Assembly (NCBI GenBank): GCA_037893245.1
Contig: JBAIAA010000414.1
Span: 1,588,001-1,652,000 of the forward strand
Direction: 5' to 3'
Source: Crossaster papposus
Lineage: Eukaryota > Echinodermata > Asteroidea > Velatida > Solasteridae
DNA: 64,000 nucleotides
Made by a program: the position numbers and the translations under genes. A model generated the notes under the pieces. It worked only from the letters and a program-made list of their open reading frames with translations. It was not told the origin of the DNA and did not search any database. Positions 26,254 through 50,088 of the stretch are shown here, one piece after another. Numbering within the stretch: the first letter of the stretch is position 1; every line of letters begins with the position of its first letter.

Positions 26254-27621
26254 CGTATCTATGATGGCCCTGAAGGGACTACGCAGATCGTGAATATTGA
26301 CGTCAATATTTCACGACTTTCCTCAAAGTCGCGAATATTGACGTCAAATTTGACGTCGATATTCGCGTCAAATTTCACGACTTTCCCCGAAAGTCGCGAA
26401 TATTGACGTCAATATTGACGTCAATATTCACGACTTTCCCAAAAAGTCGCAAATATTGACGTCAATATTCACGACTTTCCCCAAAAGTCGCGAATATTGA
26501 CGTCAAATTTGACGTCAATATTCGCGACTTGCCCCCCCAATTTTTTTTCCACAAGCTAGGTTTTGGCTAGTGTCGCTCCAAGACCGAGTTTTTCATTTGT
26601 CCGGGGCGCGCCGTCCGTCTATGCAGTTGTTCATCGATCATCCATACTCGGGATTATTGAGGGCGCCCTCGATTATCACAAGAGATCAGTGGATTTGTTT
26701 CAAGTTCAGAAACAAATCCCGTGAACTGGACTTAAAGGTATGATACACCATTTGCAGATATCAAAAATATTTACTACCGAATTATTAAGAAATATCTTAC
26801 TTATTTGAAGGTAAATTATGATTCTAGGCATCCAGCAAAATGATCGCGCTAGATATCCTGTAATTATTCCGAAAAATATAATTTTATAAAAATAAATTCG
26901 CGATCGCCGGATGGCAATCGCCCAAAACACATAATAACATAAGAATATTCAACTGCCCGACGGCTGTTGTAAACAAACGCAGTTTTTCGTGGTTTTCTCG
27001 CCATCCATAAATTATTGTAAAACGTCGGACAGGTCAGTTAAACGAGATTTACTATAAAATACAACCCCCCAAATCCACCCATTCATGATAATTCAAGCAA
27101 TTACCAATGGTGTATCCTACCTTTATCTTTGAAACAAATCCACTGATCTCTCGTGACAATCGAGGGCGCCCTCAAAAGGCCCGTTTTCGGAGTATTAATG
27201 ATTGATGAACTGCATGCATACTGTACTAGACTAGACGGACGGTGCGCGCCCCGGAACAAGACTAGCCAAAACCTAGCTTGCTGGAAAAAAAATCGCTTCA
27301 AAATATTTGCGACTTTGGGGGCAAGTCGCGAATATTGACGTCAAATTTGACGTCAATATTCACGACTTTTGGGGAAAGTCGTGAATATTGACGTCAATAT
27401 TGACGTCAATATTCGCGACTTTGAGAAAAGTCGTGAATTTTGTCGCGAATATTGACGTCAATATTCGCGACTTTCGGGGAAAGTCGTGAAATTTGACGTG
27501 AATATCGACGTCAAATTTGACGTCAATATTCGCGACTTTGAGGAAAGTCGTGAAATTTGTCGTGAATATTGACGTCAATATTCACGATCTGTTTAGTCCC
27601 TTCAGGGCCACCATACGTATC
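26254..27621. mobile_element. CRE-palindrome foldback element E1
   Basis: The element is 26260-27615 (1356 bp). Its ends read TATGATGGCCCTGAAGGGAC and the inverse of TATGGTGGCCCTGAAGGGAC. CGTATC flanks both sides (26254-26259, 27616-27621). Each outer arm (~280 bp) is an array of AATATTGACGTCAATATT-like palindromes alternating with CGCGACTTT.AAAGTCG hairpins. By hand count about 14 TGACGTCA sites occur in total. Inner arms carry CTCCAAGAC...GAGATCAGTGGATTTG, also inverted. The centre (26732-27125) is a separate MITE (M2). There is no coding region. A second member is at 48787-50082. Confidence 0.85.
26732..27125. mobile_element. M2 MITE (centre of E1)
   Basis: The left end is TTAAAGGTATGATACACCAT and the right end the inverse of AAAGGTAGGATACACCATTG. 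Related copies are 42830-43269 (free-standing) and 49275-49645 (centre of E2, inverted and truncated), and the end is tandemly amplified at 40211-40426. The interior contains a GCGATCGCCGG inverted motif. Confidence 0.75.
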
Positions 27622-28854
27622 CGCCTAATTTAGGGGGTTACTTTCGCGTGGCGGGGTATTCTGCAATTGCTTCTGCAATTCCAAAGGCACGGACAATCGG
27701 GAGACTGCATAATTATGCGTTCATATCAATTTCACGCTGGTTGTTTCCATTCTCAAAGCTTAAATGAGAAATTAAGTCAGAGAAAAAGTTGTTTATTAAG
27801 AGGAGTCTTTACAATTATTACATCCATGTTAACAGTATCGCCTAACTTAAACATTACCGCAAATTGCTGCTAGAGGGCGCCATTTCACTTTATCATGGCT
27901 TGCTTAACTGCATTGGTTCAACGTTCTCGATGAGCCAAACTAAAGTGTATAAACATGGGAAGAACTTGAAGATATAAAACAAAACGTCTGATATGCATGT
28001 TTTTAAAAGAGATTCGAAAAAATATGTCTTTCAAGAAATGTTAAACTCTTAATAAAGAAACATGTATCCTTAGTCTTTTTTAGAAATTGATTTTGTACAT
28101 TTTGTTTTTCTTTGATATTGTAATTGTTTGCAATGTTCTTATTTTTTTCCTTTAGCCACTGGAAAAATGTAATACAAAAATTATAAATGAAATAAAATAA
28201 AAGACTCCATCCAAGAATACTATCGGAAAATAAGAAACTCTCATGTATACTCGCTGTGATATTGTAGTTCAGTCAATTTACATCAAATTAGGGCCTGACC
28301 TAGAAGTAATTGCAATATAATTTGTTTTAACACGGTCACGCGGGAGAACTATTATTCTTTGACATTTGGCCATTGCTATGGTGTTGTTGCACTCGTATTT
28401 GATCTTGAATCCTAAACATTAGCTTACAAAGGCATATCAATCGAAGCAAGTGACCAGGCAGATTGTTCGAGGACAAAAAGTAATAAAAAATGGTTCAAAA
28501 ACAAACTTCCATTTAATAGAAAACATTAGATTGTTCACATGTTGTTTGTTTTATTTATTTGACGCTTGATTCATTTCTATTGCAATTAGTACAGGGTCTT
28601 AGCGTAAATTGACAGAACTATTTCGCCCTGACGCATCCACATTAAAAAAACTTATGAGCAGAAAACATGTTGGCCTCAAATTACACAGTACTGTGCGGCA
28701 GTAAACAGGTCACCCCTAGCAACAAAGTGATGGGTTCTGCCGTTGTAGAGGGGGGCATGCATCTCCACACAAAGGAAATCAGACAACTCAATTTTAGTTT
28801 TATGAGAGCAAGCGCTTTTACTTTGTACATGTGTATTAAAACAAAAATAGAACA

Positions 28855-29328
28855 CTTTCTTGCAGAGTTGTAATGACTAGTCAATGACTCGACTCGAATC
28901 AAGTTACATTTTGTTGGCGACTCAACTCGACTCATGTCCCAATGTGTAAATGACTCCACTCGACTCGACCCGACCGCAGGCAAATGACTCGATTCGATAC
29001 GAGTCCCTCATCAGAATAACCCAAAATAAGAGCAAAACGACTTACGCCAGTGTCGGTTCATGTCACGTTTATGTTGGCGAATAATAAGTACACATGGTAT
29101 ATTATCCAGTGGCCGTCTGTACACGTTTTCCTTTCTCTACGATACAACAAACATTCGTGTCATGGATTTCCACCTTGTGTTTCTGTAACGTGTTTATTTA
29201 TTAGTGACTCGAATTGACTCAAGCTAAATACATGACTCAACTCGACTACACACCGTGACCCGACCACTAATGACTCGACTCGACTCGAGTCACAACAATC
29301 AGTGACTCCTTACAACTCTGCTTTCTTG
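28855..29328. mobile_element. hAT-type MITE, copy B
   Basis: The element is 28863-29320 (458 bp), with the same CAGAGTTGTAA ends and the same CTTTCTTG 8-bp flanks as 9845-10334. It is shorter through small internal deletions in the GACTCGACTC-rich parts. Confidence 0.85.
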
Positions 29329-29928
29329 TTATAGGTGAAATGTAGTACATGTATATGGCAAAAAAATTGCATGTTAAATCACCATTTGTATTGTTATTTC
29401 ATCGGTAAACTACATCTCGTATCACAATTCGTACAATAGACAATTCTCATCAAAAAATATCAATGACAAGTTTTTAGTTAATTGGCAAAATACAAAATAC
29501 AACTGTATACAATGAAATGAGCCAATACGGTGCAGATACATCTCTTTAAATCATTAAGAGCAAAACACACTTATGCAGGGGCAACTTGAGCTGACAATAG
29601 CAGTACATAGCCAAATACAAAGCATTATGCTTGGCATAGACAAACACCCCGAATATGAGGTATTTGTACTGTGATCCTGTTAACAGTTACCACTATTGTG
29701 TAGTCAATTACAATCCCTGAATACAAGGAACAGTTTCCTCCTTTTTCTTCGGCTTCGCCATCGGGCAAACCAAGTAAATAACACTTTAAAGTACTCAAGC
29801 TAACTACATGGAGGTTATCATTAAAAACACTCGCAGTAGGAGAAACAACAACCTCCTGTCACCTCGACATTACAAAGTTAGCCGCTTAAAACTGGCTCAA
29901 TAACAAGTATCCAAAATTTGATCTACCA

Positions 29929-30240
29929 CTATAACTGTATGACAACACGTAATAAGGCCAGGTGACTGTAATTCACTATCTTCACTAGGCTTTTCAAAGA
30001 ATTAAAAATTGCAGTGAATCTATCATTCAATGCAGCTTCAATGCTATTTACCACACCTCTACCAACAGGACATACACCTTTATCATATTCACGTAAAATA
30101 TATGTGAATGCACAAACTATGGTCTCAGCTAAAGCACTATGTGACTTAGAAATAAAGTCTGGCACAGACATGGCTGGGATACACGTCTGGCAATGTACAC
30201 AACATATCACTTGTTAAAATACAGTATCAGACCTAAATCA
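29929..30240 (-). CDS. Hypothetical minus-strand frame conserved in block V, copy B
   Basis: This is the counterpart of 10957-11260. The frame QVICCVHCQTCIPAMS onward is open to the same stop. Substitutions relative to copy A include Lys to Glu, Ser to Gly, Gly to Asp and Leu to Val. No start context, splice sites or domain support a functional gene. Confidence 0.25.
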
Positions 30241-30529
30241 CTGACTTAAAATCCATCTAGTCTGCACACAGTTTGCACAGTCAAAAATAATTATGTCTAA
30301 CCACACTGTAGACAAAAGTACAATTGCAATTAATTCAAAAATTCTCAAATTGACACAAACTTACAAAGATTTAAATGTCACACAATAATATGCCAAGACA
30401 ATGAAGTCATTGATAAAACATCCTTGCACTGGTGTGAACTACAGTGCAATATACAGTTAGCTGAAAACCTAGAGTTACATTAACGTGTGTGTAACAATAA
30501 TATTTGGCTCAAAACCAAATAAATCAAAC

Positions 30530-31265
30530 TTAAAGGGATCGTACACGTTTGGTAATTGGGACCCATTGTTTGTTTCAATCCTATATAGTTATAGATATAT
30601 ACCATAAAACTAATCTGTAAAAATTTCATTTCAAAAGGTGGTAGCGATTTCGAGATATTGCCGAAAATCGGGAGCGGTTATTTCCACGCAGAAAGAATAA
30701 TCTGCATTGGAATACGCAGTCTGAGAAACGTCACTGCAGTAACGCTTCTCAGATTCAAATTTGTAGACATAAAAAGTGACATCTTTTTCCATAAGGCATA
30801 CAAAAAAAATGTTATGTAACCCGACCGACCCTAAAAATACGGCCGACCCTGGATATTTTTTGTTCAAGAGACGAAATTTAATGATTAAAATCTATATAAA
30901 TCTAGTTATAAATACGTTTGAAACCATTTCTGACCGTTTCTCATTGTTGTGAATGTGAATTGTGTATATATTGAACCTGGACACGCTATCATGTATCACT
31001 ACCGGCTTAAACAATTGAGAAAACATATCATTTTCATTGCTTGGAAGGAAAAAAAATAAAAAATCCCTACCTACCTACCCTATTTTTTTGGGCCCGTTAC
31101 GCCAACATAACATTATTTTTTGTTATGCCTATAAACCGCAGTACTTCGAAGTGAAACGTTTCTAAAAATGCATTATACTACCCAAAGCTGCTGTAGTTAT
31201 TACCAAGTAAGTTTTTCTTGCCATTAATTTTTGGAGTAATTACCAAACGTATACGATCCCTTTAA
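30530..31265. mobile_element. MITE with TTAAAGGGATCGTA ends, copy B (interrupted)
   Basis: The same element as 11558-11952, with the same flanks (GCACAGGCCTAAAA on the right). It is enlarged by the nested insertion at 30794-31130. Confidence 0.75.
30791..31133. mobile_element. 337-bp nested MITE with AGGCATA ends
   Basis: The element is 30794-31130, with ends AGGCATACAAAAAAAATGTT and the inverse of AGGCATAACAAAAAATAATG, flanked by ATA (30791-30793, 31131-31133). Copy A reads TTTTTCCATAACCGCAG without it. Three-base AT-rich duplications are usual for PIF/Harbinger-type elements, but the ends are not the classic ones. The interior includes CCCGACCGACCCTAAAAATA and the composition-biased CCTACCTACCC. 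Confidence 0.8.
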
Positions 31266-31973
31266 GCACAGGCCTAAAAAAATGTCTCTAAAATAGTTGT
31301 ATAATTAATTATTATTTTCAAACAGATTCATCGGAGGCACAACTGCCTAAAAACTGAACTGATCTAGCTTATCTACAAAATGGTAAAATATCATTAAACA
31401 ATTAAACAATTCTATAAATATAATTATACAATGAAAATTACGCAGCACATAATGTAACCGAAATGTGTCGATTAAATCCTGTCAATGCTGGGTATAGGCA
31501 CGAATCATATCAATATTTCGCGACAATAAATGCACGGAAGCGAACGCGTACATGTAGTTCTCATGTAGGAGAAAATCTAAAGTCCGGCACAAAACATATC
31601 CGGATAAAAGTACGTCGTCACTTATTATATTAAATGCACAGTTATAACTATAAGGCGTAGTACATCAAATATGCCACAGCAATACAACATGAAGGTTAAA
31701 TGTCAACACATGGCTATCTGGACTTTACATGTACGTACGCTCTAAAATATAGGTTTTCCCGATCAATGTCGGCAAATGAGCAGCCAATTTAATTGTTCGT
31801 GCGTTCGAAATAAAGCGATTTTGCCTCTCCAGATTTTGCTGTGCTTTAAATTTAAATTAGGGCATTCATTTTAGTTTTGAAACATTTAAATTTCCTAAGC
31901 AATTTGTTCAATTTAGCATATCGTCGATCTTTTATGTGACGCACATTTTTAATTGTAGAATGGTTGTTAATGG

Positions 31974-32507
31974 TTATTCATAAATACCTGGGGCAGTTTA
32001 GGCATTCCTATTGGTCGAGAGCCCGTCACGTGGCCGGTATTAAACGGACGATAAAGACATGGCTGGAAGTGTTTAAACCCAGCTGGAATCAACATTCCGT
32101 CCCAGGGCTCAATTTATTTCCAACCCTGAACCGTACCTCGTCTCCAATAATAAGAGCGGGTAGTGTTGGGCGCGTACAGCTCGACACCTTGGGTACGAGG
32201 TTGCCAATGGCAGTAATAGTCTGGTTTACAGGAAACACGCTTTATTGCATGTATTGTGTAGAGAGCGACAGAGGCGGAAACATGTCATTTGACACAGACA
32301 AAATGGCGAAACACCGAAATTTACTTGCGACAATTTTCCGTGATTTTCGGGGCTTTTTGGGCAGAATTTTACAAAAAAGGTATTTATGAATGGGAATAAA
32401 TGTGTGTTCGGTCGGTATTAATCACTCTGTTTAATACCGCTTGGAGTCTGGGTGCGGTATTAAACAGAGTGATTAAAACCTATCGAACACACATTTATTC
32501 CCTTATT
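31974..32507. mobile_element. 524-bp insertion with terminal hairpin
   Basis: The insertion is 31979-32502 with TTATT on each side (31974-31978, 32503-32507). Copy A has a single GGTTATTTTGACAC, so the duplication is a 5-bp TSD. The left end, CATAAATACC, has an inverse at 32379-32388. Beyond that, the right end is a large stem-loop (32392-32502). Open frame 31964-32389 has no recognisable domain. Confidence 0.7.
32392..32502. repeat. Long near-perfect stem-loop
   Basis: GGGAATAAATGTGTGTTCGG to TTTAATACCGC pairs with GCGGTATTAAAC to ACACACATTTATTCCC. The arms are ~48 bp with a few mismatches around a ~13-nt loop (TTGGAGTCTGGGT). Confidence 0.85.
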
Positions 32508-33267
32508 TTGACACAACAGTACATTTGCCTCGTTATAAAAACGAAATTTAAATACCATTTTCAGCAGCATTCGATTTCGCGCAAAATAGTATGACGCAGT
32601 GGTTAAATTGGCTGCTCGTTTGCCGAAATTGAGCGGAAAAACCTATAGTACAATCTGACAATATAATAATGAAATACAGGGTCGCAAAAATTAGAGAATA
32701 ATTATCTCACAAAAATATAAAACAAATTACAACGTTAATCACTATTAATTTTACAAGGTTACCCTCCCACGTGGTTTACATTATTAGAAAAACGAGATAA
32801 TGTATTTGTTTATCAGTTTATGTTGATCTTCTCTGCTCGAAGCCCACAGGAGAAAACTCGCTTCAAGTTGCATGGACCCATGCGAATCACTTGCAAAACT
32901 TTTAGGCAGTGTAGTCGATCGACGGTTCCAACCTGAAAATGTTCGCCTTTTGTGGACCACATAAGAAACCACATTATGCATTAGTACTGTATGTAATTTA
33001 TGTGACGCACACAACGTGTGTATTGCTCAGTGTTCGCATTATCAGAAATTGGTGGATTTGGTGAGTTGTACTTTTTAGTCAATATCGTTTAACTGATCGT
33101 CCGAAGTTTTACAATCATGAAATATATATGGACCACCAGTTTGGTTACCTCATCAGAAAAAAACCATATTCAATGTATTGAGACAAATTCGTGCCTTACT
33201 TACAACGTTGCCATGCCTCATCACATAATATGAAGAACGCTTATCTAAACCTAAACTTTCCCCTCAA

Positions 33268-34610
33268 TTTACCATTCAATTTAAACGTTTCGTCAGCCCT
33301 TCTAAACACCAGGTCGAGAATGTTCGTCATTACAGACCAGATTCGTCTATAGCAACAGCTTAGACCAATTTGATATGTTATGACGAATATTCTCAATCCA
33401 ATGTATAAACAGAGTGGCCACACTTTGACATTGAATGATAAATGGCAAAATTGGTTCGGAAAAAGCTTTGTCTGGACGGAATTGAACGTGAGAGTTCGTT
33501 AATTTGAATACAAAAAATGTTTTAAAATAGCATAACACCTTTATAAATACTGTCTTGTTATTCTTTTTTAACGCGTTCAAACACAAACAAGGTATTGATC
33601 GAAAATATCTAGCGATGTAGTATTCATTCTTTTAATTACACGCGAAATGTTTAGCTTCTGAAAAAATGTTTGCGTTTACTGAACACAGTGTTGACGGTAC
33701 TGTCGGACACAATGTTTATTCTACAAAGCAACGTATTAAAGGTGTAAGATGGTAATCTTGATTGTACAATGAATTAATACAAGTGCCAACTATTATTATA
33801 ACAAAAACAAATAATTATTCGAAATAAATATAGGTTTTCCCGGCCAAATTCATCACAAATTAATTCATTTTCATTAACACGCATTCAAATTCACGCATTC
33901 CCACCTATAATTCAATCAAACTAGGGTTTCTTTTTAGCTACTATTGCATTCAATTTCGTGTTTGTGCCCACATAATTTCGTTCTTTTTAGGTTTGTTTTA
34001 GTCATTCTATTTCATGTATAGGCATTCAAGACTACAGTTTTACCCTTCTTCAGTTGAATTTCTGCTATATGTTCCTCCGGCTAAAGCCTGTACCCTTTAT
34101 ATTTAAAGTTTGAAAAGTTATGGTGGTAAGTTTGAAATGAAAACTAAATCTTTCGCTATTGTCTTGTGATCATGTGCACTCGTCTTTATGTTTTATTCTT
34201 TATTTTTGCTAATGTTCGGACCATGTCCAATAACAAAATAGCAAATGCTTTTAAGAAACAAAAGCTTAAAATTATCAGGGGGTCTTTATAAAATTAATTT
34301 AAACAAAAGGTTGTTATTTTCATGTATATTTTTTCCACAGTTCCTTTTTTAATCGCGTTTCTTTTCGTTCCAAAATGCTTTACTTAAAGGTATAACGCAG
34401 AATTAGTGTAATTCTGTATTCTCTTAATTCAGAATTTGTCTTTATATAGGTAAATACCAATTTGAATGTGAACATTAAAAAAATGTTTGTCAATTGATAA
34501 CATTGATTGGTTGACGACCTCGTGAAGTTGAATGATCTTATTTGGCCAGTGAATGCTAACTGCTGAAATAGAATTACTCTTTTTGACTGTTAAATGCTGA
34601 TGCAACAAAG
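33268..34610. repeat. Block W, copy B: FREP2 3'-distal flank
   Basis: It is collinear with 16818-18190. It is non-coding. The end of an ATAGGTTTTCCCGG element is at 33826. No gene is seen. Confidence 0.6.
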
Positions 34611-34612
34611 CT

Positions 34613-34618
34613 TTTATT
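34613..34618 (-). terminator. Candidate poly(A) signal of FREP2
   Basis: AATAAA on the minus strand, ~97 bases past the FREP2 stop, matching FREP1. Confidence 0.4.
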
Positions 34619-34714
34619 TTGAAACGAAATTGAATGAGCCTGGCGTTAATTTGAATGATTTTGTGTTTAAATTTGGCCTGGAAAACCAATATAATATACA
34701 ATAGGATACGGCGT

Positions 34715-35764
34715 TCAAGATCTAATTTCACGCATTTTCATGCTACATGCTTTCATAGAATATACACGCGATTTCCATGAAAGCCACTGTACGCCTATTG
34801 TACGCTCAACGGCATTCTCATCTGGGTAATATCTACCATTCAAGTGAGACATTAAACACCGATTAAACCACCAGGCTCCTGCGCGCATTCGTGCGCAATT
34901 ACATTGTCGTGCATCATCATTGTCACGATCCTTTGTCGTAAAGGGATACCCTCTGTGTTTCCAAAGAGAGTCACCGGCAGTGCTGCTGGCATCGTATTGG
35001 TCATAATTTAGATTGTACTCACCCGGGGATATTTGGAAATCTGAGTACTTTGCCCATGCCGTGTTGCCCTCCCAGTCCTCTAAGTAAACTCGTAGCTCCC
35101 ATGATCCACGTGAATCATCAGACGTCAGAGTCACCAAGTTGTCGTTACCCAACCAGAACTCACCGGACAGATCGCCAAAGCCAGACTGGTAGTCGGCCCA
35201 GTTACGGTAGAAGTCCTCGCTGCCATCTTGTCGCCTCTGAAACACGATCCATCCCCCGCCGTCAGTTTCCATGTCACAGTAGACACGAAGACCGCCATTT
35301 CCAAATCGCTCTGGGTAGATTGTGTAGATACCGCTTGAAAGATAACCTGCATCTAAGAGCAGCTTGCAACTTCTGTTGCGATTCAAGGAACTATCAGCCA
35401 GTGAGTAGAGAGGTGTGTCCTCATCTGCATCAAAGTAAACGTTCCCTTGAGTTGCATTGAAGTAGTCGAGATGCTGCCGTCTTGTGGCAAGGTTCAACTC
35501 GCACATTTTACTGTAGTCATTAAAGTTAAAAGACTTGCAATGTTGATCCATGCTGCATTCACGTCCGCAGATGACACGAGATCTTACAATTTTGGTTGCA
35601 AACGCAAATTCTTTTAGGGCGCGATTTTCTGCGGCATAAAACGCACGTTTCCCTGCATAAGAAGTTTCACATCCAGTGACGGACGAAGTAGCTCCCTGAC
35701 ATATGATGAATATTATGTGAAATAGTTGCAACCCAGTAAAGGTCAGTTTCGCCATTGCTTCCAT
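34715..35764 (-). CDS. Fibrinogen-related lectin FREP2 (PAN + FBG domains)
   Basis: 349 residues in one uninterrupted frame from the upstream ATG (MEAMAKL; the second Met, three codons on, is the start used for FREP1). Signal peptide to about residue 25, PAN-like domain with the same cysteine pattern (one Cys of the FNFNDCSK stretch is Tyr here), fibrinogen domain from about residue 132 with DGGGW, WLGND, the calcium site KDRDND, GAWWF-x-x-C and YSMKACSMKMR. Compared with FREP1 the differences concentrate after the calcium site: D-D-A-R-Q-C-N-C, which adds a Cys, and NAVERTIGVQW. The predicted product is a secreted, calcium-dependent recognition lectin; ligand unknown. The stop is followed by a flank shared with FREP1. 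Confidence 0.93.
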   Translation of the reverse strand: MEAMAKLTFTGLQLFHIIFIICQGATSSVTGCETSYAGKRAFYAAENRALKEFAFATKIVRSRVICGRECSMDQHCKSFNFNDYSKMCELNLATRRQHLDYFNATQGNVYFDADEDTPLYSLADSSLNRNRSCKLLLDAGYLSSGIYTIYPERFGNGGLRVYCDMETDGGGWIVFQRRQDGSEDFYRNWADYQSGFGDLSGEFWLGNDNLVTLTSDDSRGSWELRVYLEDWEGNTAWAKYSDFQISPGEYNLNYDQYDASSTAGDSLWKHRGYPFTTKDRDNDDARQCNCARMRAGAWWFNRCLMSHLNGRYYPDENAVERTIGVQWLSWKSRVYSMKACSMKMREIRS

Positions 35765-36600
35765 TACTTAAAAGATTCGTTAAAATCAGATGACTTAACG
35801 TCGATCTCAGTTTGTTTTATTTGTTTTTGTATAATGTACGCCACATATAGTTGAATTCAGGAAAGAAAATCTAGCGATTTGTCGTGTCTGATTGAACTAT
35901 CCACAATGGTTGTTCAACGACTACAAGTCAAGCCGTACTGCTTTCGGCTGCTGTCCTCTCTATACAAATGCTAGAATGCTCCTGTGACACAGAGGCCTGG
36001 CGATTGTGGGACTTGGTATAGTTTACAGAAAGGAATGGGTTGAGGCAGACGATGTGTCTCTCTCATTCTCTCTGATTGGTTATCCAAGTGATCACGTCAT
36101 CCACGTCAGTGGCTAGTAGATGGTCAGATGTTTTATCGTAAGCTGATAACCTCATCGTTCTGTGAGATTCTGGATAAACGTTAAGCGCTGAAGTGGAGTC
36201 TTAGATCGTTTTGAATAATTGTCGTCATGCCACGCCAAACAAAGACACGGGGAATCTGGAGATTGCATATGCGCTCATCAATTTCACGCTCGTTGATTCC
36301 ATTCTCAAAACTTGAATGAAGAAGTCAGAGATAAAGTCGTCTATAAACTAAGAGGAGTCTTTACATTATTATAGCTTATACAAACGACAACACGAACTGT
36401 CCACGATATTGATTTTGTTCCAGTGAATCTAGGACAATAAGAGGCAATTCTCTGGTTACTATGGTAACTCCTACCGAAGGCCACAAGCTGATTATTTTCA
36501 AGGAAGATCGATTTATACCAAACCTGAATTGACAGCCTGAAATTTAATGAAGTCGCAAATATTATGAGTTGCGTTACAAAACCAAATCTAGACTCCTTTG
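35765..36600 (-). promoter_or_regulatory. FREP2 5' flank
   Basis: It is homologous to 19334-20225. The proximal CCAAT box is kept (36075-36079, ~311 bp before the ATG). A deletion of ~50 bp after 36127 removes the second CCAAT box present in the FREP1 and FREP3 flanks (CCTTTGATTGGCTAATG). R1 lies at ~36240-36370. Confidence 0.45.
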
Positions 36601-37136
36601 TACTTACATCATCGCCATCACTAAAACAAAAAATAATACTTAAGAGTGGGTCAACGTAAATATTTAAAATAAGTGTTCTCGTCAATAATTTGTTTTTTAA
36701 ATATAAAAGGACTTGGTAAGCAAGTAACGAAAATAGAACTTACATTTTGTTATGTCCTGTTTCCATGCTAACAGGCCATTTTGTGTTTTGCTTATAATTT
36801 GAAACAAATCACCCAGCCAAAATGCAAATTTATAATCAACTACATGTATATCATTACAAAGAATTATCATTGCCCTTTCTTGAGAACAAAACAAAATGTT
36901 TTAAATGTCACCCTTATGTTACCCTTAGGCCAACATTGGTCTTTTTATATCTGCTGAGATAAGTTTTGGGGATTATTCTCTTTGGGCACTACTGCATCAA
37001 AAATGGTTATTTTCCCCCCAAAATGGAAAAATGAAATTTGAAGTTTCCCTTCGGTTTAAGGTAATGATACCCAAACAAATAGTACTTTTATGAATCCGGC
37101 TCCTTTTTTTAATTTATAAGAGTGTATAGGTCTGTT
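36601..37136. other. Block W distal flank, no gene
   Basis: It is collinear with 20226-20860 and with 45370-45910. No coding signal is seen. It lacks the hairpin MITE of the FREP1 flank. Confidence 0.55.
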
Positions 37137-39700: not shown

Positions 39701-39708
39701 AGATGTAT

Positions 39709-40095
39709 TTCGCCATTGTTTTCTTTCTTTTAATGTTTGATAAGTACATGTAGTTATTAAACTGCGCGGAACAAAATTCAGCGATTGTTCATGTCTGGTT
39801 TTACTGTCGCCACGTTGTTAAAAGATTCAAGCCACACTGCTTTCGGTAGCTGTCTTCTTTACACAACTGCTGAATGGCTCTGGAGACACAGAGGTCTGAC
39901 GATGATGGGATTTGCAATAATACACAAAGCAATGGGGTGAGGCAGACGATGTGTATTTCTCTGATTGGTTATTTAAGTTAATGCGTCCTTCCATATTTAG
40001 TCTTTAGTCTTCCCGCTAGTCACAAACCATTGCGTCACAAACTGTTTCACGTTTTACCGTAGCCTTATAACAGCAGTGGTACAGTACGTAACAGA
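39709..40095 (-). pseudogene. Orphan FREP 5' flank; gene deleted
   Basis: This is a diverged copy of the FREP promoter region: CACACTGCTTTCGG, ACACAGAGGTCTGACGATG, GGTGAGGCAGACGATGTGTA and TCTCTGATTGGTTAT (CCAAT on the minus strand, 39964-39968). At 39714-39716 a minus-strand ATG begins MAK as in the FREPs, and homology ends directly after it, so the coding region has been lost. The greater divergence suggests an older duplicate. Blocks kept here and in the intact genes are the best candidates for functional promoter elements. Confidence 0.6.
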
Positions 40096-40210
40096 TGGAT
40101 TAAAGTTTGACATGAAGCGCATAAAGCCGGGGCTTCGTTTACGTCAATGTCAAGATGCAGTGACTCCGTGAAATCCATACTCAACACTTAAACAAGAACG
40201 TCAGTGATAA

Positions 40211-40426
40211 ATTATCAGGAATGGGTGGAAGTTAAGGTATGATACACCATTAGTAATTTCTTGAATTATCAGGAATGGGTGGATGTTAATGTTGGATACA
40301 TCACTGGTGATTGCTTGAATTATCAGGAATGGGTGGATGTAAAGGTAGGATATATCATTGGTAATTGCTTGAATTATCAGGAATGGGTTAATGTAAAGGT
40401 AGGATACACCATTGGTATTTCCCACC
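40211..40426. repeat. Four tandem 54-bp repeats derived from the M2 MITE end
   Basis: The units start at 40211, 40265, 40319 and 40373 with ATTATCAGGAATGGGT and contain AAGGTAGGATACACCATTGG. This is the terminal sequence of M2 (compare 49300-49340). The frames open across it are period effects, because 54 is a multiple of three. Confidence 0.85.
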
Positions 40427-40868
40427 TCTTATGTACGCATTCGTAAAATTCGGTATTTTAAAAAAACAAAATTCGATTGTCCCAATTGTTCATGTTTTAT
40501 GTATTAACACTATAGTGTGATAGACCTCAACCTTGTTCCTATGGTGTCAACAGTACCCTTCTATCTCTACCGGCTCTTTTACCCTGGTATTGAGTACGGG
40601 ATCTAGACGGGCGTTCCACTTTGTTGTGCTCTATAGACCAGAAAGTGATGCTGAAAAGATTTTCATGGGTTTTCTAAATAAAAAAAGCAACAAATCTTTG
40701 ACAAAAATAGCTAATCGACCAGAATGTTTGTACCCTGTACAATGGACCGTTTTGGTTTCTTCTCGCCAGGTCCATTAAAAATGCGCATCTGCGCATAAAA
40801 GTAAATTTATTGGAAAAAGGTCCATTCACCTCGTGGGGTCAATTATTGAGGTTGACGAAGACAAGCAA

Positions 40869-41690
40869 GGTGAGGTTCAGGGCGAGGTCCCGGGCGAGGT
40901 CCCGGGCGAGGTTTCGGGCGAGGTCCCGAGCGAGGTCCCGGGCGAGGTCCCGGGCGAGGTCCAGGGCGAGGTCCAGGGCGAGGTTTCGGGCGAGGTCCAG
41001 GGCGAGGTCCAGGGCGAGGTCCAGGGCGAGGTCCAGGGCGAGGTCCAGGGCGAGGTCCAGGGCGAGGTCCCGGGCGAGGTCCCGGGCGAGGTCAAGGGCG
41101 AGGTCCAGGGCGAGGTCCAGGGCGAGGTCCAGGGCGAGGTCCAGGGCGAGGTCCAGGGCGAGGTCCAGGGCGAGGTCGAGGGCGAGGTCGAGGGCGAGGT
41201 CGAGGGCGAGGTCGAGGGCGAGGTCCCGGGCGATGTCCAGGGCGATGTCCAGGGCGAGGTCCAGGGCGAGGTCCAGGGGAGGTCCAGGGGGAGGTCCAAG
41301 GCGAGGTCCAAGGCGAGGTCCAGGGCGAGGTCCAGGGGCGAAGTCCAGGGCGAGGTCCAGGGCGAGGTCCAGGGCGAGGTCCAGGGCGAGGTCCAGGGCG
41401 AGGTCAAGGGCGAGGTCCAGGGCGAGGTCCAGGGCGAGGTCCAGGTCGAGGTCCAGGGCGAGGTCCAGGGCGAGGTCCAGGGTGAGGGCCAGGGCGAGGT
41501 CCAGGGCGAGGTCCAGGGTGAGGGCTAGGGCGAGGGCCAGGGCGAGGGCCAGGGCGAGGGCCAGGGCGAGGGCCAGGGCGAGGGCCAGGGCGAGGGCCAG
41601 GGCGAGGACCAGGGCGCGGCCAGGGCAAAGTCCAGGGCGAGGGCCAGGGCCAGGGCAAAGTCCAGGGCGCGGCATGGGCGCGGCCAGGGC
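40869..41690. repeat. 12-bp minisatellite, array 1
   Basis: The unit is GGGCGAGGTCCA with variants (CCGGGCGAGGT, TCGAGGGCGAGG, and at the right end GGGCGAGGGCCA). Because 12 is divisible by three and the unit has no stop in any frame, long frames appear on both strands: GEVQ, RARS and similar on plus; LDLA, SPWT and PGPR on minus. I do not regard any as a gene: no frame is favoured and the frames change across single-base variants. The G-rich strand could form G-quadruplex-like structures. Confidence 0.85.
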
Positions 41691-42000
41691 GCTGCCAGAA
41701 GTTGTGGATCTACATCTGTAGAATACTATGCAAACTCCTTAATAGCATATCCCATACAGGAATAGTAACCTTTACAGGTGTTTGAAGCATAAATTCCAGT
41801 TGCCTTACACCTGCCAACCACGCTTTAATAATTACATACTCACAAACTCAACACAAACAACCTAAATAAACTAAGACAAATTAATCGTGGATTGGTTCTT
41901 GTCGCTCAGTTTATTCAACGTCATTGGTCTTTTTGAATTGGAACCATTTTTGTATCGCAATATACAAGCAAAAAGTAAAATGTGCTTATTAATTAAGATT
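41691..42000. repeat. Minisatellite right flank, copy 1
   Basis: It matches 63708-64000 (GTTGTGGATCTACATCTGTA onward, both ending at the word TTAATTAAGATTATT). The part from ~41890 (ATCGTGGATTGGTTCTTGTC) also resembles block X at 23820-23930. It is non-coding. Confidence 0.75.
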
Positions 42001-42829
42001 ATTTGTTGCCCTCTTCCTCAATATTGATGTGGTTTTGGTAATTTTAAATTAATTTCAATTATAAGCACTTACTTAAGATAACGCGCTCCAAATAATGCAT
42101 AATGTCATAATTGCGATTTAGTGAAATGTTTACAAATGATTACCATATTTCTTATAATGATTATTTCGACACCCCCATAAAACCTAGTTTCAAAAACATG
42201 ATCACTAGTGTTCCCTGGATGTATCCGATAAATTGTGAATTGTTTAATGGGATGGTGCCAGACTTTTTTTGAATTCTAGCCTCACTTTCAATATTTTTTT
42301 GAAATGTGGCATAAAACATTAAGGTATGTTTAATCACAAATGTTTAATTATTCATTAGAGACGACTGGTGTTATTTGGTAATTAACTTTAGTCATTGTTT
42401 TCATTTTTATCTGCAAGTTAAAATCAAAATGTCGATTTTACCTCACTTTCAATTATTATGGCCGACTCGTGAATAAATCTCATAGTGACGGATGCTGTTC
42501 GTAGCTCTGCAATGTTGGCGAAAGTTATTCTTTAAAGGAGAATTTAACTTCAATTTAAAAAAGACCATCATGCCTTTTTTTATAATGTAATCGGCAGGTT
42601 GTTGTACATAATGGGTGAACCCTTGTGTATGTGATTGCGCCTATAATGTCGCTGTTAAAAAGGGGAAAATCGGATTGACAATTAACTTAGTCTAAATTCG
42701 AGGCAGCTTCGGTTGAACTCTGCTACAATTTAGCATTGCGATATGATCAAATGTAGCCGTTGTTTCGTCAAATGTACAAAATATAATGGGTATTCTTTAT
42801 AATAAGCAAAACAAAAACTAGTTAACCTC
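42001..42829. other. No feature recognised
   Basis: AT-rich DNA without open frames, RNA genes or repeat ends that I can support. Confidence 0.5.
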
Positions 42830-43269
42830 TTAAAGGTAGGATACATCATTTGCAGATATCTACCGAATTATTAAGAAATATCTTACTTATTTGAAAATAA
42901 ATATTGTCTCTGAAGAAGATCTTGTTAAGATCGAAATATTAGGCCCTCTTAACTCATTTGATCAATATTGTTTGTTAGCATCCAGCAAAACTATGCGCTA
43001 GATATCCTGTAATTGTTTCGAAAAATTGAATTTTATAAAAAATAAATTACGATCGCCGGCCGGCGATCGTGGAAAAAAACAAGAACAACATAAGAACAAC
43101 TGCCTGACGCCGGTTGAAAACGAACGCCATTTTTCTGGCTTTTCTCAGCATCTATGATTGTAAAACTTCAGACAGGTCAGTTAAACGAAATTTTCTATCA
43201 AATACAACTCCCCAAATCCACCCATTCCTCCTAATTCAAGCAATTACCAATGGTGTATTCTACTTTTAA
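42830..43269. mobile_element. M2 MITE, free-standing copy
   Basis: The ends are TTAAAGGTAGGATACATCAT and its approximate inverse (CCAATGGTGTATTCTACTTTTAA). The interior has a 22-bp perfect palindrome at 43049-43070 (half-site ACGATCGCCGG). A 56-bp insertion at 42908-42963 is flanked by AATATTGT on both sides (42900-42907, 42964-42971). Confidence 0.75.
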
Positions 43270-43445
43270 CGTGTAGACAAAGTGATAGTAACATTTCAAT
43301 TAACTGCTAAACATTATTCCATAGAAACATTTTTTGGCAGTTTTAATAACTAAAAGACTCTGGGTATTAATGAATGGCTGTGCAATGATTTACAGGTGCC
43401 AACTAAAACAAGTACATTTCAAAATTAATTTCAACAATGCAACAT
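43270..43445. other. Unique 3' flank of FREP3
   Basis: It shares nothing with the FREP1/FREP2 3' flank; homology starts exactly at the C-terminal codons of FREP3. No AATAAA was found on the minus strand here. Confidence 0.5.
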
Positions 43446-44510
43446 TCATTGTTCAATTTCACGCGTTTTCATGCTACATGCTTTCATGGAATAACCCCTT
43501 TTCCATGAGATCCATTGCACGCCTTGGTAACGATCTGCATTCTTGTCTGGGTAATATACACCATTTAAGTGAGAATAATAACAGTTATTAAACCACCAGG
43601 CTCCTGCGTACATTTGTGCACAATTGTTCTGTGACGCATCATTGTCACGATCCTTTGTTGAAAAGGGATGTCCTTTGTGATACGTGTTCATACTATTTCC
43701 CTGATACCCAAGAGAGTCGCCGGCAGTGCTGCTGGCATCGTATTGGTCATAATTCAGATTGTACCCACCCGGAGATATTTGGAAATCTGAGTATTTTGCC
43801 CATGCCGTGTTACCGTTCCAGTCCTCTAAGTCAACTCGTAGCTCCCATGTTCCACGTAAATCGTCGGACGTCAGAGTCACCAAGTTGTCATTACCCAACC
43901 AGAACTCACCGGACAGATCTCCAAAGCCAGACTGGTAGTCGGTCCAGTTACGGTAGAAGTCCACGCTGCCATCTTGTCGCCTCTGAAACACGATCCATCC
44001 CCCGCCGTCAGTTTCCATGTCGCAGTAGACACGAACACCGTCATTGCAGATTCCCTCTGGGTAGATTGTGTAGATACCGCTTGAACGATAACCAGCATCT
44101 AAGAGCATCTTGCAACTTTTGTAGCGATTCAAGGAACTATCAGCCAGTGAGTAGAGAGGTGTGTCCTCATCTGCATCAAAGTACACGCTCCCTTGAGTTG
44201 CATTGAAGTAGTCGAGATGCTGTCGTCTTATGGCCTGGTTCAACTCGCACATTTTACTGCAGTCATTAAAGTTAAAAGACTTGCAATGTTGATCCATGCT
44301 GCATTCACGTCCGCAGATGACACGAGATCGTACAATTTGGGTTGCGAACGCAAACCCTTTTAGGGCGCGATTTTCTGCGGCATAAAAAGCATGTTTCCCT
44401 GCATAAGAAGTTTCATATCCAGAGACGGACGAGGTAGCTCCCTGACATATGATGAATATTATGTGAAATAGTTGCAACCCAGTAAAGGTCAGTTTCGCCA
44501 TTGCTTCCAT
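43446..44510 (-). CDS. Fibrinogen-related lectin FREP3 (PAN + FBG domains)
   Basis: 354 residues, single exon, from the upstream ATG (MEAMAKL). Signal peptide, PAN-like domain (CGRECSMDQHCKSFNFND) and fibrinogen domain as in FREP1. By hand count FREP3 differs from FREP1 at about 24 of ~266 positions up to GDSLG, then at about 22 of ~78, plus a ~9-residue insertion (QGNSMNTYH) just before the calcium site KDRDND. Examples are N-N-C-Y-Y-S-H-L-N-G-V for K-R-C-L-M-S-H-L-N-G-R, and ADRYQGVQW. In fibrinogen-domain lectins this C-terminal part forms the ligand pocket, so the change probably alters specificity (inference). The 3' flank is unrelated to those of the other copies. Confidence 0.93.
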   Translation of the reverse strand: MEAMAKLTFTGLQLFHIIFIICQGATSSVSGYETSYAGKHAFYAAENRALKGFAFATQIVRSRVICGRECSMDQHCKSFNFNDCSKMCELNQAIRRQHLDYFNATQGSVYFDADEDTPLYSLADSSLNRYKSCKMLLDAGYRSSGIYTIYPEGICNDGVRVYCDMETDGGGWIVFQRRQDGSVDFYRNWTDYQSGFGDLSGEFWLGNDNLVTLTSDDLRGTWELRVDLEDWNGNTAWAKYSDFQISPGGYNLNYDQYDASSTAGDSLGYQGNSMNTYHKGHPFSTKDRDNDASQNNCAQMYAGAWWFNNCYYSHLNGVYYPDKNADRYQGVQWISWKRGYSMKACSMKTREIEQ

Positions 44511-45370
44511 TACTTAAAGGATTTGTTAAAATCAGATGACTTAACGTCGATTTTATTTTTTGTATAATGTGCGCCACAAAATTGAAATCACGGGAAGAAA
44601 ATCTAGCGATTTTTCGTGTCTGATTGAACTATCCACAATGGTTGTTCAGCGACTACAAGTCAAGCCGTACTGCTTTCGGCTGCTGTCCTCTCTATACAAA
44701 TGCTAGGATGCTCCTGTGATATAGAGGCCTGGCGATGATTGTACTTGGTATAGTTTACAGAAAGGAATGGGTTGAGGCAGACGATGTGTCTCTCTCATTC
44801 TCTCTGATTGGTTATCCAAGTGATCACGTCATCCACGTCAGTGGCTAGTAGATGGTCCGTATTCCCGCAGTTACAAACCGTAGCCTTTGATTGGCTAATG
44901 TTTTATTGTAAGCTGATTACCTCATCGTTCTGTGAGATTCTGGATAAACGTTAAGCGCTGAAGTACAGTCTTAATTCGTTTTAAATAATTGTCGTCACGC
45001 CACGCCAAACAAAGACACGGGCAATCTGGAGATTTCATATGCGCTCATCAATTTCACGCTGGTTGATTCCATTCTCTAAACTTGAATGAGAAAGTCAGAG
45101 ATAAAGTCGTCTATAAACTAAGAGGAGTCTTTACATTATTATAGCTTATACAAACGACAACACGAACTGTCCACGATATTGATTTTGTTCCAGTGAATCT
45201 AGTGGCAATAAGAGGCAATTATCTGGTTACTATGGTAACTCCTTCTACCGAAGGCCACAAGCTGATTATTTTCAAGGAAGAACGATTTATACCAAACCTG
45301 AATTGACAGCCTGAAATTTAATGAAGTCGCAAATATTATGAGTTGCGTTACAAAACCAAATCTAGACTCC
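44511..45370 (-). promoter_or_regulatory. FREP3 5' flank
   Basis: It is homologous to the other FREP flanks. CCAAT boxes lie on the gene strand at 44807-44811 (~297 bp before the ATG) and near 44888. The TATATA-like word seen near FREP1 is lost (CGCCACAAAATTG instead). R1 is at ~45005-45130. Confidence 0.45.
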
Positions 45371-45910
45371 TTTGTACTTACATCATCGCCATCACTAACA
45401 CAAAAAAATAATACTTAAGAGTGGGTCAACGTAAATATTTAAAATAAGTGTTCTCGTCAATAATTTGTTTTTTAAATATAAAAGGACTTGGTAAGCAAGT
45501 AACGAAAATAGAACTTACATTTTGTTATGTCCTGTTTCCATGCTAACAGGCCATTTTGTGTTTTGCTTATAATTTGAAACAAATCACCCAGACAAAATGC
45601 AAATTTATAATCAACTACATGTATATCATTACAAAGAATTATCATTGCCCTTTCTTGAGAACAAAATAAAATGTTTTAAATGTCACCCTTATGTTACCCT
45701 TAGGCCAACATTGGTCTTTTTATATCTGCTGAGATAAGTTTTGGGGATTATCCTCTTTAGGCACTACTGCATCAAAAATGGTTATTTTCCCCCAAAAATG
45801 GAAAAATGAAATTTGAAGTTTCCCTTCGGTTTAAGGTAATGATACACACACAAATTGTACTTTTATGAATCCGGCTCCTTTTTTTTAATTTATAAGAGTG
45901 TATGTCTGTT
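45371..45910. other. Block W distal flank, copy 3; no gene
   Basis: Nearly identical to 36601-37136, closer than either is to the FREP1 flank. This indicates that the FREP2 and FREP3 distal flanks share a recent origin. Confidence 0.55.
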
Positions 45911-46546
45911 AATTCGTCAGCGACACCACGAACTGACTCCCAGTGGTCGCTGTTACAGAAATACAATTCGGAAAAAACGCTTTTAAAGGTTCGACACGAG
46001 TTTACTCAGTCAACAAATTCGTCTACTTGAAGGGTTTTTGTATCATTAAACGTAACAATTCGTTGACTGCTGAAACACAATCTTTATATTGTGAAAATGT
46101 GGTTAGTTAATTAATAATTAAATGATTAAGACGGGTGTCAGTTCCTGAAAACGAAAACTGTCGCGTTTTAGGAGAGTGCGCGCATACATTGCAGTGAGTG
46201 AGAGCCAGTTTGTGAAAACGAAAATTGACGCGTTAGAGTGCGCGCACACTGTGCTGGCTGTCAGTTCGTGAAAACGAAAACTGTCGCGTTTTCGGGGAGT
46301 GCGCGCACACAGTGCTTGGGTGCCGCCGTGTTGACAACATCGAGTTCTATTTATTTCGTAGACAAACGTGATACGTATACACGGCGTAATACAGCATTGC
46401 CCTGGGTACGTTGTATAGACAGTACCAATGCGCCCCCGCAATTTCGTTTTCACGAACTGACACCGAGTGCAGTGTCACTTCGTGGAACCGAAAAACGACA
46501 GAATAGACTAATTTCTGCAAAACTCCCCAATAAAAATTAGCAAATA
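45911..46546. mobile_element. P element, right-truncated copy with internal tandem repeats
   Basis: It starts at 45915 with CGTCAGCGACACCACG after AATT, as in the complete copy at 37141. It ends early at ~46546, joining a sequence (CCAATCTTAATGTTGACGC) found at 38382. The interior has about three tandem units (from ~46137, ~46205 and ~46261) of CAGTT-TGAAAACGAAAACTG, each followed by AGTGCGCGCA; the 37-kb copy has one. Confidence 0.7.
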
Positions 46547-47104
46547 AACTTTTTTTACCAATCTTAATGTTGACGCTATTACCAATATTGCGCTTAAACA
46601 CTAGCTGAAGTACCCGGTAGTCTTCTTTGGGTGATAATTCTCTAAAACGCCACGGGTCAACCCACTAAAAATTGAAAAGAAAATGAAAGATTGCATGTTG
46701 GTCATCATTTCGTCTGAAAAGTCTGAACACCTGTGAGAGAGTTTCAAGTATTTAAACAAGATTTTGAAAGTTTGGCAATGGTGATGGAGTCGGAGCCTAT
46801 AGCTAGGATTTTTGAAAACGACCTTTGTAAACTGTTGTCATCAGATGTTTTTTTTATATTAGTCGTGTCCTGTACGGACGCTCTTTCAAGTTATGAAATC
46901 TTGACTTTTTAAAGTTTAGCATCCCTCATAAAACATTTCAACCGAAATGGTCTGGTACGTATAGCAATGTGCTTTAGTTTCTGATTTGTGCAAGGAAATA
47001 AACGTTGCCGAAAGTAATGTGTTATTATTACCTCAACCAATTCAGTTCCAGAATTGTTTAGAAATATAAAAGGACGCCCATAGTTTTGACCAAGCATTCT
47101 GGAG
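46547..47104. other. FREP-distal fragments and block Z, no gene
   Basis: 46560-46855 matches 38382-38690; 46855-47060 is block Z. Nothing else is recognised. Confidence 0.5.
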
Positions 47105-48298
47105 ACAGTGACTAGTCGCCGACAACTATAAACCGCCTGTATCGAATGATTGCGCGTCAATGTTTCAGTCGCGCGACCGACTATAATAAACCAGGCTTTA
47201 CGATACTAGAGAGATTTGGCTCGGGGGTAGGCAAAGCAAGAACTTCCTATCTCAAGTAGAATTGTACAATTTCTCGGAATTTTTTTACAAATATTGTTTT
47301 TCCTCACGAGTTTTGTGCTCCTTTCTCCACGAGTCTCTAGAGAATAACCAACTTTTTCGGGGTACCATTCACCATTATTGCGGGCAGAATTGTGGACCTT
47401 TTTAACGTCGTGATTTAAGGCCCGCGGGCATGAATTTGAATTTATTAGGGCATTGTATTTAGAAAAAACGGCTTTTGTCGACATCTCACAATTAGTCCGG
47501 TTAATTTACATTAAAATAGGGGCTGACCTAGAAGTAATTGCAATATAATTAATTTTAACACTGTCACGCAGAATAACTAGGCCTATTACTCTTCGACCTA
47601 CTAAAAAAAATCGAATGTCCCCCAATGAGTGAAACAGTGATTTGTATTCACTTTTTGCTACATACCGGTACAAAATAAATGTCGTTTATGTTTTGCGTCT
47701 AAACCGTCAGAAAATATGTTCACATCACGCATGCGACACCGCGAAACTAGACTTATCACAAGCAGACGACTTTTCTGTGTCCAATTTATATCTAATGTGA
47801 CCAGCTCTGCAAAAATGAGTCTGATGTGGCATAAACAAAATTGTGTGTTCTTCATATGGCTTGAAAGAGCATCAAATAAGTTTTCGGTTTTGTCTGAAAA
47901 TGTAGATATAAAACAAGAAAAACACACACACACACACTCAAAATAATTTCCCGAAGAAAAAAAAATCACCCCTGAACATTCAATCGCCCTGTACGTGTAA
48001 ACAGTCAATGCGACATCCGACTCATTTTTGCAGAGCGGGTCATTATCTACCTTGCCACGCAATAATATTTGGTATTTTCTTTAAAACGGTGAGGAATTTT
48101 GATATTTTTGGCTGTCAGAATTATTAATTCGGTTAAAATAAATCACTTCATGTTCAATAAACCCTTTGTTTTGTAATATTTTGGCATAGATAGGGCAAAT
48201 GACAACAGAGGCGCGGACAATGATGTGACGAAGTGGCCCAATTGAACTTAAGTGTTCATGCACATAAGCACGAGCCTAAAAGAAAAGAAAAGGTGGGC
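47105..48298. repeat. Block X, copy 2 (first part)
   Basis: It is collinear with 22030-23230. It includes the second copy of the GACCCGC-ended MITE at 47799-48041 (left end GACCAGCTCTGC). No gene is called. Confidence 0.65.
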
Positions 48299-48299
48299 A

Positions 48300-48692
48300 T
48301 AATAATACTATACTATACTAATACAAATAATGTTAGTTCTTATATAACGCTTTAGACTCCCACAGTGTGGGTGTATCAAAGCGCTTTACCATTTATTATT
48401 ACCCCGGTCATCGGGCCCATGAAACATTCCAAATACCATCTCAGCTCCCTGGGGAGTATACAGCTCGATGCTGCCACTTCGGCGCAAAGTAGCTAAATCA
48501 ACCACAATAACCATCTCTGCCCTCACAGGTACCCATTTACTCCTGGGTGGAGAGAAGCAATGAGTGACAAAGTGCCTTGCCCAAGGGCACACGCACCATA
48601 GTCCCAGGCAGGACTCGAACCCACAATCTTTAGCTTTACATACAGATTACAAATTCAATGCTCCAGACCACGAGGCCACGGCACTCCACGAT
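48300..48692 (-). mobile_element. tRNA-derived SINE
   Basis: On the minus strand the head reads GCCGTGGCCTCGTGGTCTGG (A-box region), then GGTTCGAGTCCTGCC (B-box). The body contains CTCTCCACCCAGGAGTAAAT and GGGTACCTGTGAGG, and the tail AAAGCGTTATATAAGA. The same body and tail type occur in the SINE at 61133-61430. The homologous place in copy 1 (GGGCATATGTAGAGATTAT, ~23233) is uninterrupted. Target duplication not clear. Confidence 0.8.
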
Positions 48693-48780
48693 GTGGAGAT
48701 TATGTTATTGGCTGATCATTTAACATCAACATGATTAATACAAACCTGCTAAAGGGATGATTGTCACTTTTAAAACTGGA

Positions 48781-50088
48781 CATACGTATGGTGGCCCTGA
48801 AGGGACTACCCAGATCGTGAATATTGACGTCAATATTCACGACAAATTTCACGACTTTCCTCAAAGTCGCAAATATTGACGTCAATATTGACGTCAATAT
48901 TCACGACTTTCCCCAAAAGTCGCGAATATTGACGTCAAATTTGACGTCGATATTCGCGTCAAATTTCACGACTTTCCCCAAAAGTCGCGAATATTGACGT
49001 CAATATTCGCTACAAAATTCACGACTTTCCCCAAAAGTCGCGAATATTGACGTCAAATTTCACGACCGGACATAAATTTTGACGCGAATTTGTTTCCAGC
49101 AATCTAGGTTGTCTTCTTATTCATCCATGGTTTTGGTTAGTCTTGCTCCAAGACTGATTTTTTTATTTGTTCCGGGGAGCGCCGTCCGTCTATGCAGTTC
49201 ATCAATCATCAATACTCCGAAAACGGGCTTATTGAGGGCGCCCTTGATTGTCACGAGAGATCAGTGGATTTGTTTTAAAGGTATAGGTAGAATACGGTTA
49301 GGATACACCATTGGTAATTGCTTGAATTATCACGAATGGGTGGATTTTGGGGGGTTGTATTTTATAGTAAATCTCGTTTAACTGACCTTTACAATAATTT
49401 ATTGATGGCGAGAAAATCACGAAAAACTACGTTTGCTTTCAACCGCCGTCGGGCAGTTGAAAATTCTTGTTATTAAATGTATTCGGGTTTTTTGCGATCG
49501 CCGTCCGGTGATCGCGAATTAAGTTTTATAAAGAAAAAATCCGGAATAATTTAAGGATATCTTGCGCGATCATTTTGCTGGATGCCTAAAATCATAATTT
49601 ACCTTCAAATAAGTAAGATATTTCTTAATAATTCGGTAGTCAACAAATCCACTGATCTCTCGTGACAATCGAGGGCGCCTTAAGTCCGTTTTCGGAGTAT
49701 GTAGGATTAATGAACTGCATAGACAGACGGCCGGACGGCGCGCCCCGGACAAATGAACAACTCAGTCTTGGAGCAAGACTAACCAAATCCTAGCTTGCTG
49801 GAACAAAAATTCGCGTCAAAATATTCGCGACTTTGAGGAAAGTCGTGAATTTTGTCGCGAATATTGACGTCAATATTCGCGACTTTCAGGGAAAGTCGTG
49901 AAATTTGACGCGAATATCGACGTCCGAATTTAACGTAAATATTCGCGACTTTGGGGAAAGTCGTGAATATTGACGTCAATATTGACGTCAATATTCGCGA
50001 CTTTGAGGAAAGTCGTGAAATTTGTCGTGAATATTGACGTCAATATTCACGATCTGCGTATAGTCCCTTCAGGGCCACCATACATACG
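48781..50088. mobile_element. CRE-palindrome foldback element E2
   Basis: The element is 48787-50082 (1296 bp), with ends TATGGTGGCCCTGAAGGGAC and its inverse, flanked by CATACG (48781-48786, 50083-50088). The empty site in copy 1 (~23325) has one CCTACG, so the TSD is 6 bp. Arms of AATATTGACGTCAATATT palindromes are as in E1, with the inner arms CTCCAAGACTG...GAGATCAGTGGATTTG. The central M2 (49275-49645) lies in the opposite orientation to that in E1 and lacks ~45 bp at one end. Confidence 0.88.

Follow-up and report, generated by a model that had tools for sequence, protein, structure and literature searches.

The window analysed here, 64,000 nucleotides of a contig from the sea star Crossaster papposus (C414:1588001-1652000, in a genome of 1.02 Gb), contains two copies, E1 and E2, of a mobile foldback DNA transposon whose arms are arrays of short palindromes (Table 1). 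The copies lie in opposite orientation, and their best alignment stands at 77.6% over 925 columns. The initial annotation had described shared ends of 20 bp or more, and indeed all four ends agree over 22 bp in the sequence TATGGTGGCCCTGAAGGGACTA, barring one base at the E1 5′ end. Exact 6-bp target duplications flank both elements, and neither has an open frame of at least 120 aa. The arms are built of AATATTGACGTCAATATT blocks with CGACTTTCCCCAAAAGTCG-like hairpins between them, which bears out the earlier picture of octamer arrays with hairpin spacers and about 14 perfect octamers in E1; we count 14 copies of TGACGTCA in E1 and 10 in E2. The whole window has 30 such octamers against 0.93 expected, a number reached in 0 of 100 shuffles. 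Folding of the E2 left arm gives -86.6 kcal/mol, compared with -30.8 (SD 3.7) in 200 shuffles (z -15). Inverted similarity in the E1 left arm extends to about 26703, beyond its approximate inner limit, and the E1 middle contains segments similar to other repeats of the window, such as 42947-43281.

Table 1. Features of the window, in window coordinates
Feature	Position	Strand	Description
E1, whole element	26260-27615		Foldback DNA transposon
E1, left target duplication	26254-26259	.	CGTATC
E1, left arm, palindrome-array part	26260-26531	+	End TATGATGGCCCTGAAGGGACTA, followed by an array of TTGACGTCAA palindromes and TTYRCGAC hairpins with 7 TGACGTCA; inner limit approximate
E1, middle	26532-27300	.	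Inverted in part; no open frame of at least 120 aa
E1, right arm, inverted array	27301-27615	-	7 TGACGTCA; terminates in ...TAGTCCCTTCAGGGCCACCATA; inner limit approximate
E1, right target duplication	27616-27621	.	CGTATC
E2, whole element	48787-50082		Foldback DNA transposon
E2, left target duplication	48781-48786	.	CATACG
E2, left arm	48787-49090	+	End TATGGTGGCCCTGAAGGGACTA, then palindrome array with 6 TGACGTCA; inner limit approximate
E2, middle	49091-49805	.	No open frame of at least 120 aa
E2, right arm	49806-50082	-	4 TGACGTCA; terminates in ...TAGTCCCTTCAGGGCCACCATA; inner limit approximate
E2, right target duplication	50083-50088	.	CATACG
Paralogous empty site of E2	23252-23410	+	Single target CCTACG, not CATACG
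Paralogous site without E1	7080-7246	+	Local CCCGTAT tandem
Second paralogous site without E1	53738-53904	+	CCCGTGT tandem
Three tandem fibrinogen-C plus PAN genes	18299-19345, 34715-35767, 43446-44513	-	Duplicated units
GC-rich 12-bp tandem arrays	40740-41720, 62120-63790		Long; open in several frames

The 6-bp duplication of E2 is established by a paralogous empty site, as the initial annotation had held, because the two flanks meet there with one copy of the target, at 93.1% identity over 159 positions. The two sites without E1 are less clean, since a 7-bp unit repeated in tandem there obscures the comparison. At the point of E1 insertion these paralogs hold CCCGTAT (or CCCGTGT) twice in tandem, and the tandem 7-mers may reflect slippage or an excision footprint, two origins that are indistinguishable here. 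The contig contains a near copy of E1 (L002, 98%) at a distance of about 0.7 Mb, and because this copy has the flanks of E1, E1 was probably present before the duplication that gave rise to L002. Among the E copies with perfect duplications, inverted arms surround a variable middle in elements of 84 to 1799 bp, the arrangement that defines foldback (FB) elements. The shortest copies, L023 and L024, are each a perfect palindrome of 84 bp with TGACGTCA at its centre, and L023 folds over its full length; L024 repeats the flanks of L023, and the two represent one distinct site. Other copies have 23 octamers (L015) or 20 within 829 bp (L017).

Genome-wide, the end core TGGYCCTGAAGGGACTA occurs 969 times (491 and 478 on the two strands), and its reversed control does not occur. 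From the first 100 core matches listed we chose and fetched 17 two-ended places, of which 11 have a perfect 6-bp duplication, one (L021) has a duplication with one mismatch and five have none. Collecting copies by their shared end and tabulating their duplications, as had been proposed, gave 24 rows with at most one mismatch across all fetched DNA; 20 of these are perfect and stand for 17 distinct sites, as L002 has the flanks of E1, L018 those of L017 and L024 those of L023. None of the 20 extends to 7 bp. TATGG starts 29 of the 30 tabulated ends (TATGA at the E1 5′ end), a count biased by the use of this pattern to find ends, the border position being set independently by the duplications. 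CAGATCGTGA occupies positions 25-34 in 28 of the 30 ends and is displaced by small insertions in the other two. In 18 distinct duplications (L021 included, L041-L043 excluded), G or C (S) fills 29 of 36 outer two positions and 5 of 36 central two (binomial p 3e-7 and 0.002, respectively, at an assumed G+C of 38.3%). The target pattern NATACG suggested from E1 and E2 fits those two sites and none of the other 16. Because the ends are near-identical, the duplication length is fixed and genes are absent, it is strongly implied that a DDE transposase supplied in trans recognises the common end and moves the elements. The fixed length also bears on whether these are Mutator-like foldback elements, Mutator being the commonest foldback source. 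The E elements are indeed Muta1-like in having subterminal repeats next to a terminal palindrome that is imperfect (here CCCT..AGGG), but the Mutator families compared in PMC5225508 have duplications of 8-9 bp, against 6 bp here, and we regard this origin as very unlikely.

According to two published accounts, the IS3EU superfamily has TA..TA termini and target site duplications usually of 6 bp (PMC10045372), and its rust-fungus families have 6-bp duplications, terminal inverted repeats (TIRs) of more than 30 bp and TAYGG..CCRTA ends (PMC12730594). The E elements have each of these features, and membership of E1 and E2 in IS3EU appears likely. The reading we favour, and consider probable, is that E1 and E2 are nonautonomous foldback elements whose movement depends on an IS3EU-type transposase (integrase-like, DDE) supplied in trans, with arms consisting of amplified subterminal contacts. 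Such a transposase would pair the TATGG..CCATA ends of each element and insert it at a stagger of 6 bp, favouring targets with S in the outer positions. The contact motifs, for which TTYRCGAC is the best candidate, would have been multiplied through slippage or template switching at hairpins. At least 150 frames in the genome match the integrase-core model rva_4 (150 of 150 scored, among 434 candidates). One of them, a 432-aa frame in L054, matches rva_4 at 4e-36, and the sole NCBIfam model that it matches at E <=0.1 is, weakly, an IS3 transposase (2.4e-8; 33.7 bits, cut-off 160). From this IS3 match we infer that the rva_4 genes are putative IS3EU transposases.

Several results weigh against assigning the E elements to an IS3EU-type transposase. 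The search for an autonomous partner with the same ends, which the initial annotation had called for, yielded no transposase-bearing copy: in the frames of the copies examined, partly scanned with Pfam, these ends and a transposase gene do not occur together. L054 itself has no E-type end in the 2.8 kb examined and no TIR with a 6-bp duplication. For the 25 rva_4 places listed on contigs as far as C188, the nearest listed end is 7.4 kb away, outside the 5-kb limit applied, with the end list complete to C78 and thus for 8 of these places; judged by eye, none of the 39 ends of a wider look is near a listed rva_4 place. A duplication is missing from five two-ended places, namely L013, L014, the long C19 pair, and L020 with the long C7 pair, these last two being copies of one site; L014 contains P-element-like fragments. 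Tblastn of the L054 protein against the 54 other fetched records gave no match at E <1. Among the titles and abstract openings listed in a literature search, none concerned a foldback IS3EU element or a TGACGTCA foldback element.

The fragments in L014 raise the question of whether the E elements are P-superfamily (Galileo-like) foldback elements. Between its two E-type ends, at 1021-2490, L014 has broken P-element-like gene pieces, namely a match to TNP-like_RNaseH_C (2.1e-16) and pieces of TNP-like_GBD below cut-off. Because this place has no duplication and its left flank is E-element sequence, L014 looks nested or chimeric. Of the 78 other P-like matches, those on C31, C56 and C75, the sole P-match contigs with a complete end list, are more than 20 kb from any end by eye. 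Duplications of the P superfamily are 7-8 bp long, against 6 bp here, and among the copies examined no P-type transposase was found with these ends and a duplication of that length. We consider a P-superfamily origin very unlikely.

The arms can be compared with those of seven relatives that have similar ends (L041, L042, L045, L049, L050, L052 and L053), in each of which the count of TGACGTCA is 0. Four of them (L045, L050, L052 and L053) have 18-20 of the first 20 end bases in common with E and perfect duplications, two (L041 and L042) have fewer end bases in common and one-mismatch duplications, and L049 has similar ends and no duplication. Their arrays are of different makeup, with direct TTTACGACATCACAT repeats in L050 and L053 and ACTAGTCGYRAA-like arrays in L042. 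TTYRCGAC is a recurrent motif in five of these relatives, with counts of 34 in L050, 22 in L053, 26 in L041, 22 in L042 and 4 in the 182-bp L045, next to 21 in E1 and 20 in E2; 18 occur in the 61 kb of the window outside E1 and E2, and shuffles give 0.1 for E1 and 0.2 for L050. The motif is thus contained in three array families: E, B (L041 and L042) and C (L045, L050 and L053). Its scarcity in L049 (2) and absence from L052 and the 84-bp L023 (0 each) count against a general contact role. Neither TGACGTCA nor TTYRCGAC is universal, and the end alone is common to all. The L052 element itself (322 bp, at 9003-9324, duplication GATCAG), with a body of TCTGCGCAGA and TGCGATATCGCA palindromes, overlaps an open frame at 8631-9449, the start of which matches SRCR.

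That the arms serve as extra transposase contacts is suggested by the recurrence of TTYRCGAC and by analogy with Galileo, whose arm repeats contain additional transposase binding sites as told in PMC4079207, and with Muta1, which has 12-bp subterminal repeats (PMC5225508). The arrays may instead lack a binding role and be by-products of slippage or template switching at hairpins, so that the ends (about 22-40 bp) alone matter for movement. Consistent with this are the 84-bp form, which has two ends and one palindrome between the same flanks and yet a perfect duplication, and the variation of arrays among relatives, from direct TTTACGACATCACAT repeats to TCTGCGCAGA and TGCGATATCGCA palindromes and ACTAGTCGYRAA-like arrays. 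Octamer conservation points the same way: in 28 of 30 ends its mean is 0.96, next to 0.99 for the upstream and 0.95 for the downstream neighbours, the upstream figure being biased because ends were retained by positions 25-34. A by-product origin does not readily account for the recurrence of TTYRCGAC across E, B and C arrays far above shuffles. Given the 84-bp form and L052, both without TTYRCGAC, we regard arrays without a binding role as possible, and as modestly less likely than arms that act as contacts.

A purely structural account would have one IS3EU-like machinery serve a clan that shares an end of about 10-20 bp and whose bodies repeatedly became unrelated palindrome arrays, with hairpin or cruciform structure, not sequence, being kept and an 84-bp perfect palindrome sufficing. 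Self-folding is strong in L052 (z -29) and L042 (z -33), in addition to E2. This account is weakened by L053, because a search for hairpins by folding its arm found none (z +0.24); the arm consists of direct repeats, and the opposite arm matches it inverted. Palindrome bodies are frequent, and since the L053 arm does not self-fold, they are not required. We judge the structural account unlikely; if true, a large clan of IS3EU-like elements with palindromic bodies would be a further lineage and, with its similar ends, four different arrays and 84-bp minimal form, a natural series for testing the role of the arms.

The octamer had drawn attention as a possible CREB/ATF site or, alternatively, as the transposase site. 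Elements of this kind might recruit or spread CREB/ATF-type (bZIP) sites, which would drive their retention or affect host genes. Such a role would suit the density of TGACGTCA in E arms, as well as the roughly 15,121 of 136,993 genomic octamers (11%) that have an E-type AATAT flank (10,484 + 10,181 one-sided minus 5,544 two-sided; reversed controls 909 + 1,893 for the 13-mer and 0 for the 18-mer). The flanks argue otherwise. The CREB/ATF consensus context is RTGACGTCAY, which accounts for 98,342 genomic octamers, or 72% (control 12,072, and 29,990 for the octamer reversed), whereas each of the 24 octamers of E1 and E2 is flanked by T/A (TTGACGTCAA context) and falls outside RTGACGTCAY because it excludes T..A. 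Across the fetched DNA as a whole, which was selected for elements, T..A flanks number 345, R..Y 14 and others 11. A source of CREB/ATF sites in these elements is therefore poorly matched by their own octamers, and the absence of the octamer from the seven relatives stands against both proposals; we find a bZIP-related role very doubtful. Rather, TGACGTCA appears to be the E family's own array variant, dispensable for movement, and its likeness to a CRE seems to be a peculiarity of this one family, not a sign that gene switches have been spread. The spacing on C1, where some octamers are paired 156-165 bp apart or occur at 203-bp steps, suggests that the genomic RTGACGTCAY and TGACGTCA are present in further repeats too. 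The case is a caution that a high density of a transcription-factor octamer within a repeat need not mean regulation.

Several other candidates were set aside. The 10.6-kb pair on C7 (L009 and L010) is not regarded as an autonomous copy, because its frames sit in a 9.2-kb nested element that is missing from the duplicate L020. That nested transposon (L009:1-5701 and L010:1-5401; C7:1926300-1937300) has ends TAGGCCGTA, a 4-bp duplication AATG and weak DUF6589-like and CXC (TCR)-like frames, both below cut-offs. The 12-kb pair on C19 (L011 and L012) is two element pieces about 10 kb apart. Among the IS481-model matches, the one scanned (L033) proved to be an integrase of retroelement type, with an H2C2 zinc finger and rve, and L034-L040 have long frames listed, of which one scanned in L037 gave no match. 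L044, L046, L047, L048 and L051, in which a non-E end has a doubtful mate or none nearby, contained no transposase frame that was recognised, Pfam having covered part of them, and the L054 protein did not match them; the single frame scanned in L047 is a reverse transcriptase. Contig C8 (at least 5.2 Mb) has 24 of the 66 IS481-model matches listed, 21 of them with a 313-aa frame by eye, and because these matches cluster there, C8 looks like a bacterial chromosome within the assembly.

Among known foldback systems, the TU elements of sea urchins resemble the E elements in having foldback arms with short repeats, and differ in their 8-bp duplications and 15-bp direct repeats. A sea urchin foldback element is cited in PMC4079207, and that paper also describes Tetris and Galileo of Drosophila, which resemble the E elements in having long arms with internal tandem repeats, including extra transposase sites in the arm repeats of Galileo. 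For Tetris, too, an autonomous copy was not found, and a miniature relative, DAIBAM, shares its ends; the ends differ from those described here, and Tetris units are tandem and about 220 bp long, whereas the units here are short, with self-complementarity in the E, B and L052 types (PMC4079207). Muta1 likewise has an imperfect palindrome as its terminal motif, with subterminal repeats behind it, and many nonautonomous derivatives that share the TIR alone, and differs in its duplications of 8-9 bp (PMC5225508). Compared with IS3EU/GingerRoot, the E copies examined have no transposase and very long palindromic foldback arms, which the accessible portions of PMC10045372 and PMC12730594 do not mention for IS3EU; in 6-bp duplications, TA..TA and TAYGG..CCRTA ends and a TIR of more than 30 bp, the two are alike.

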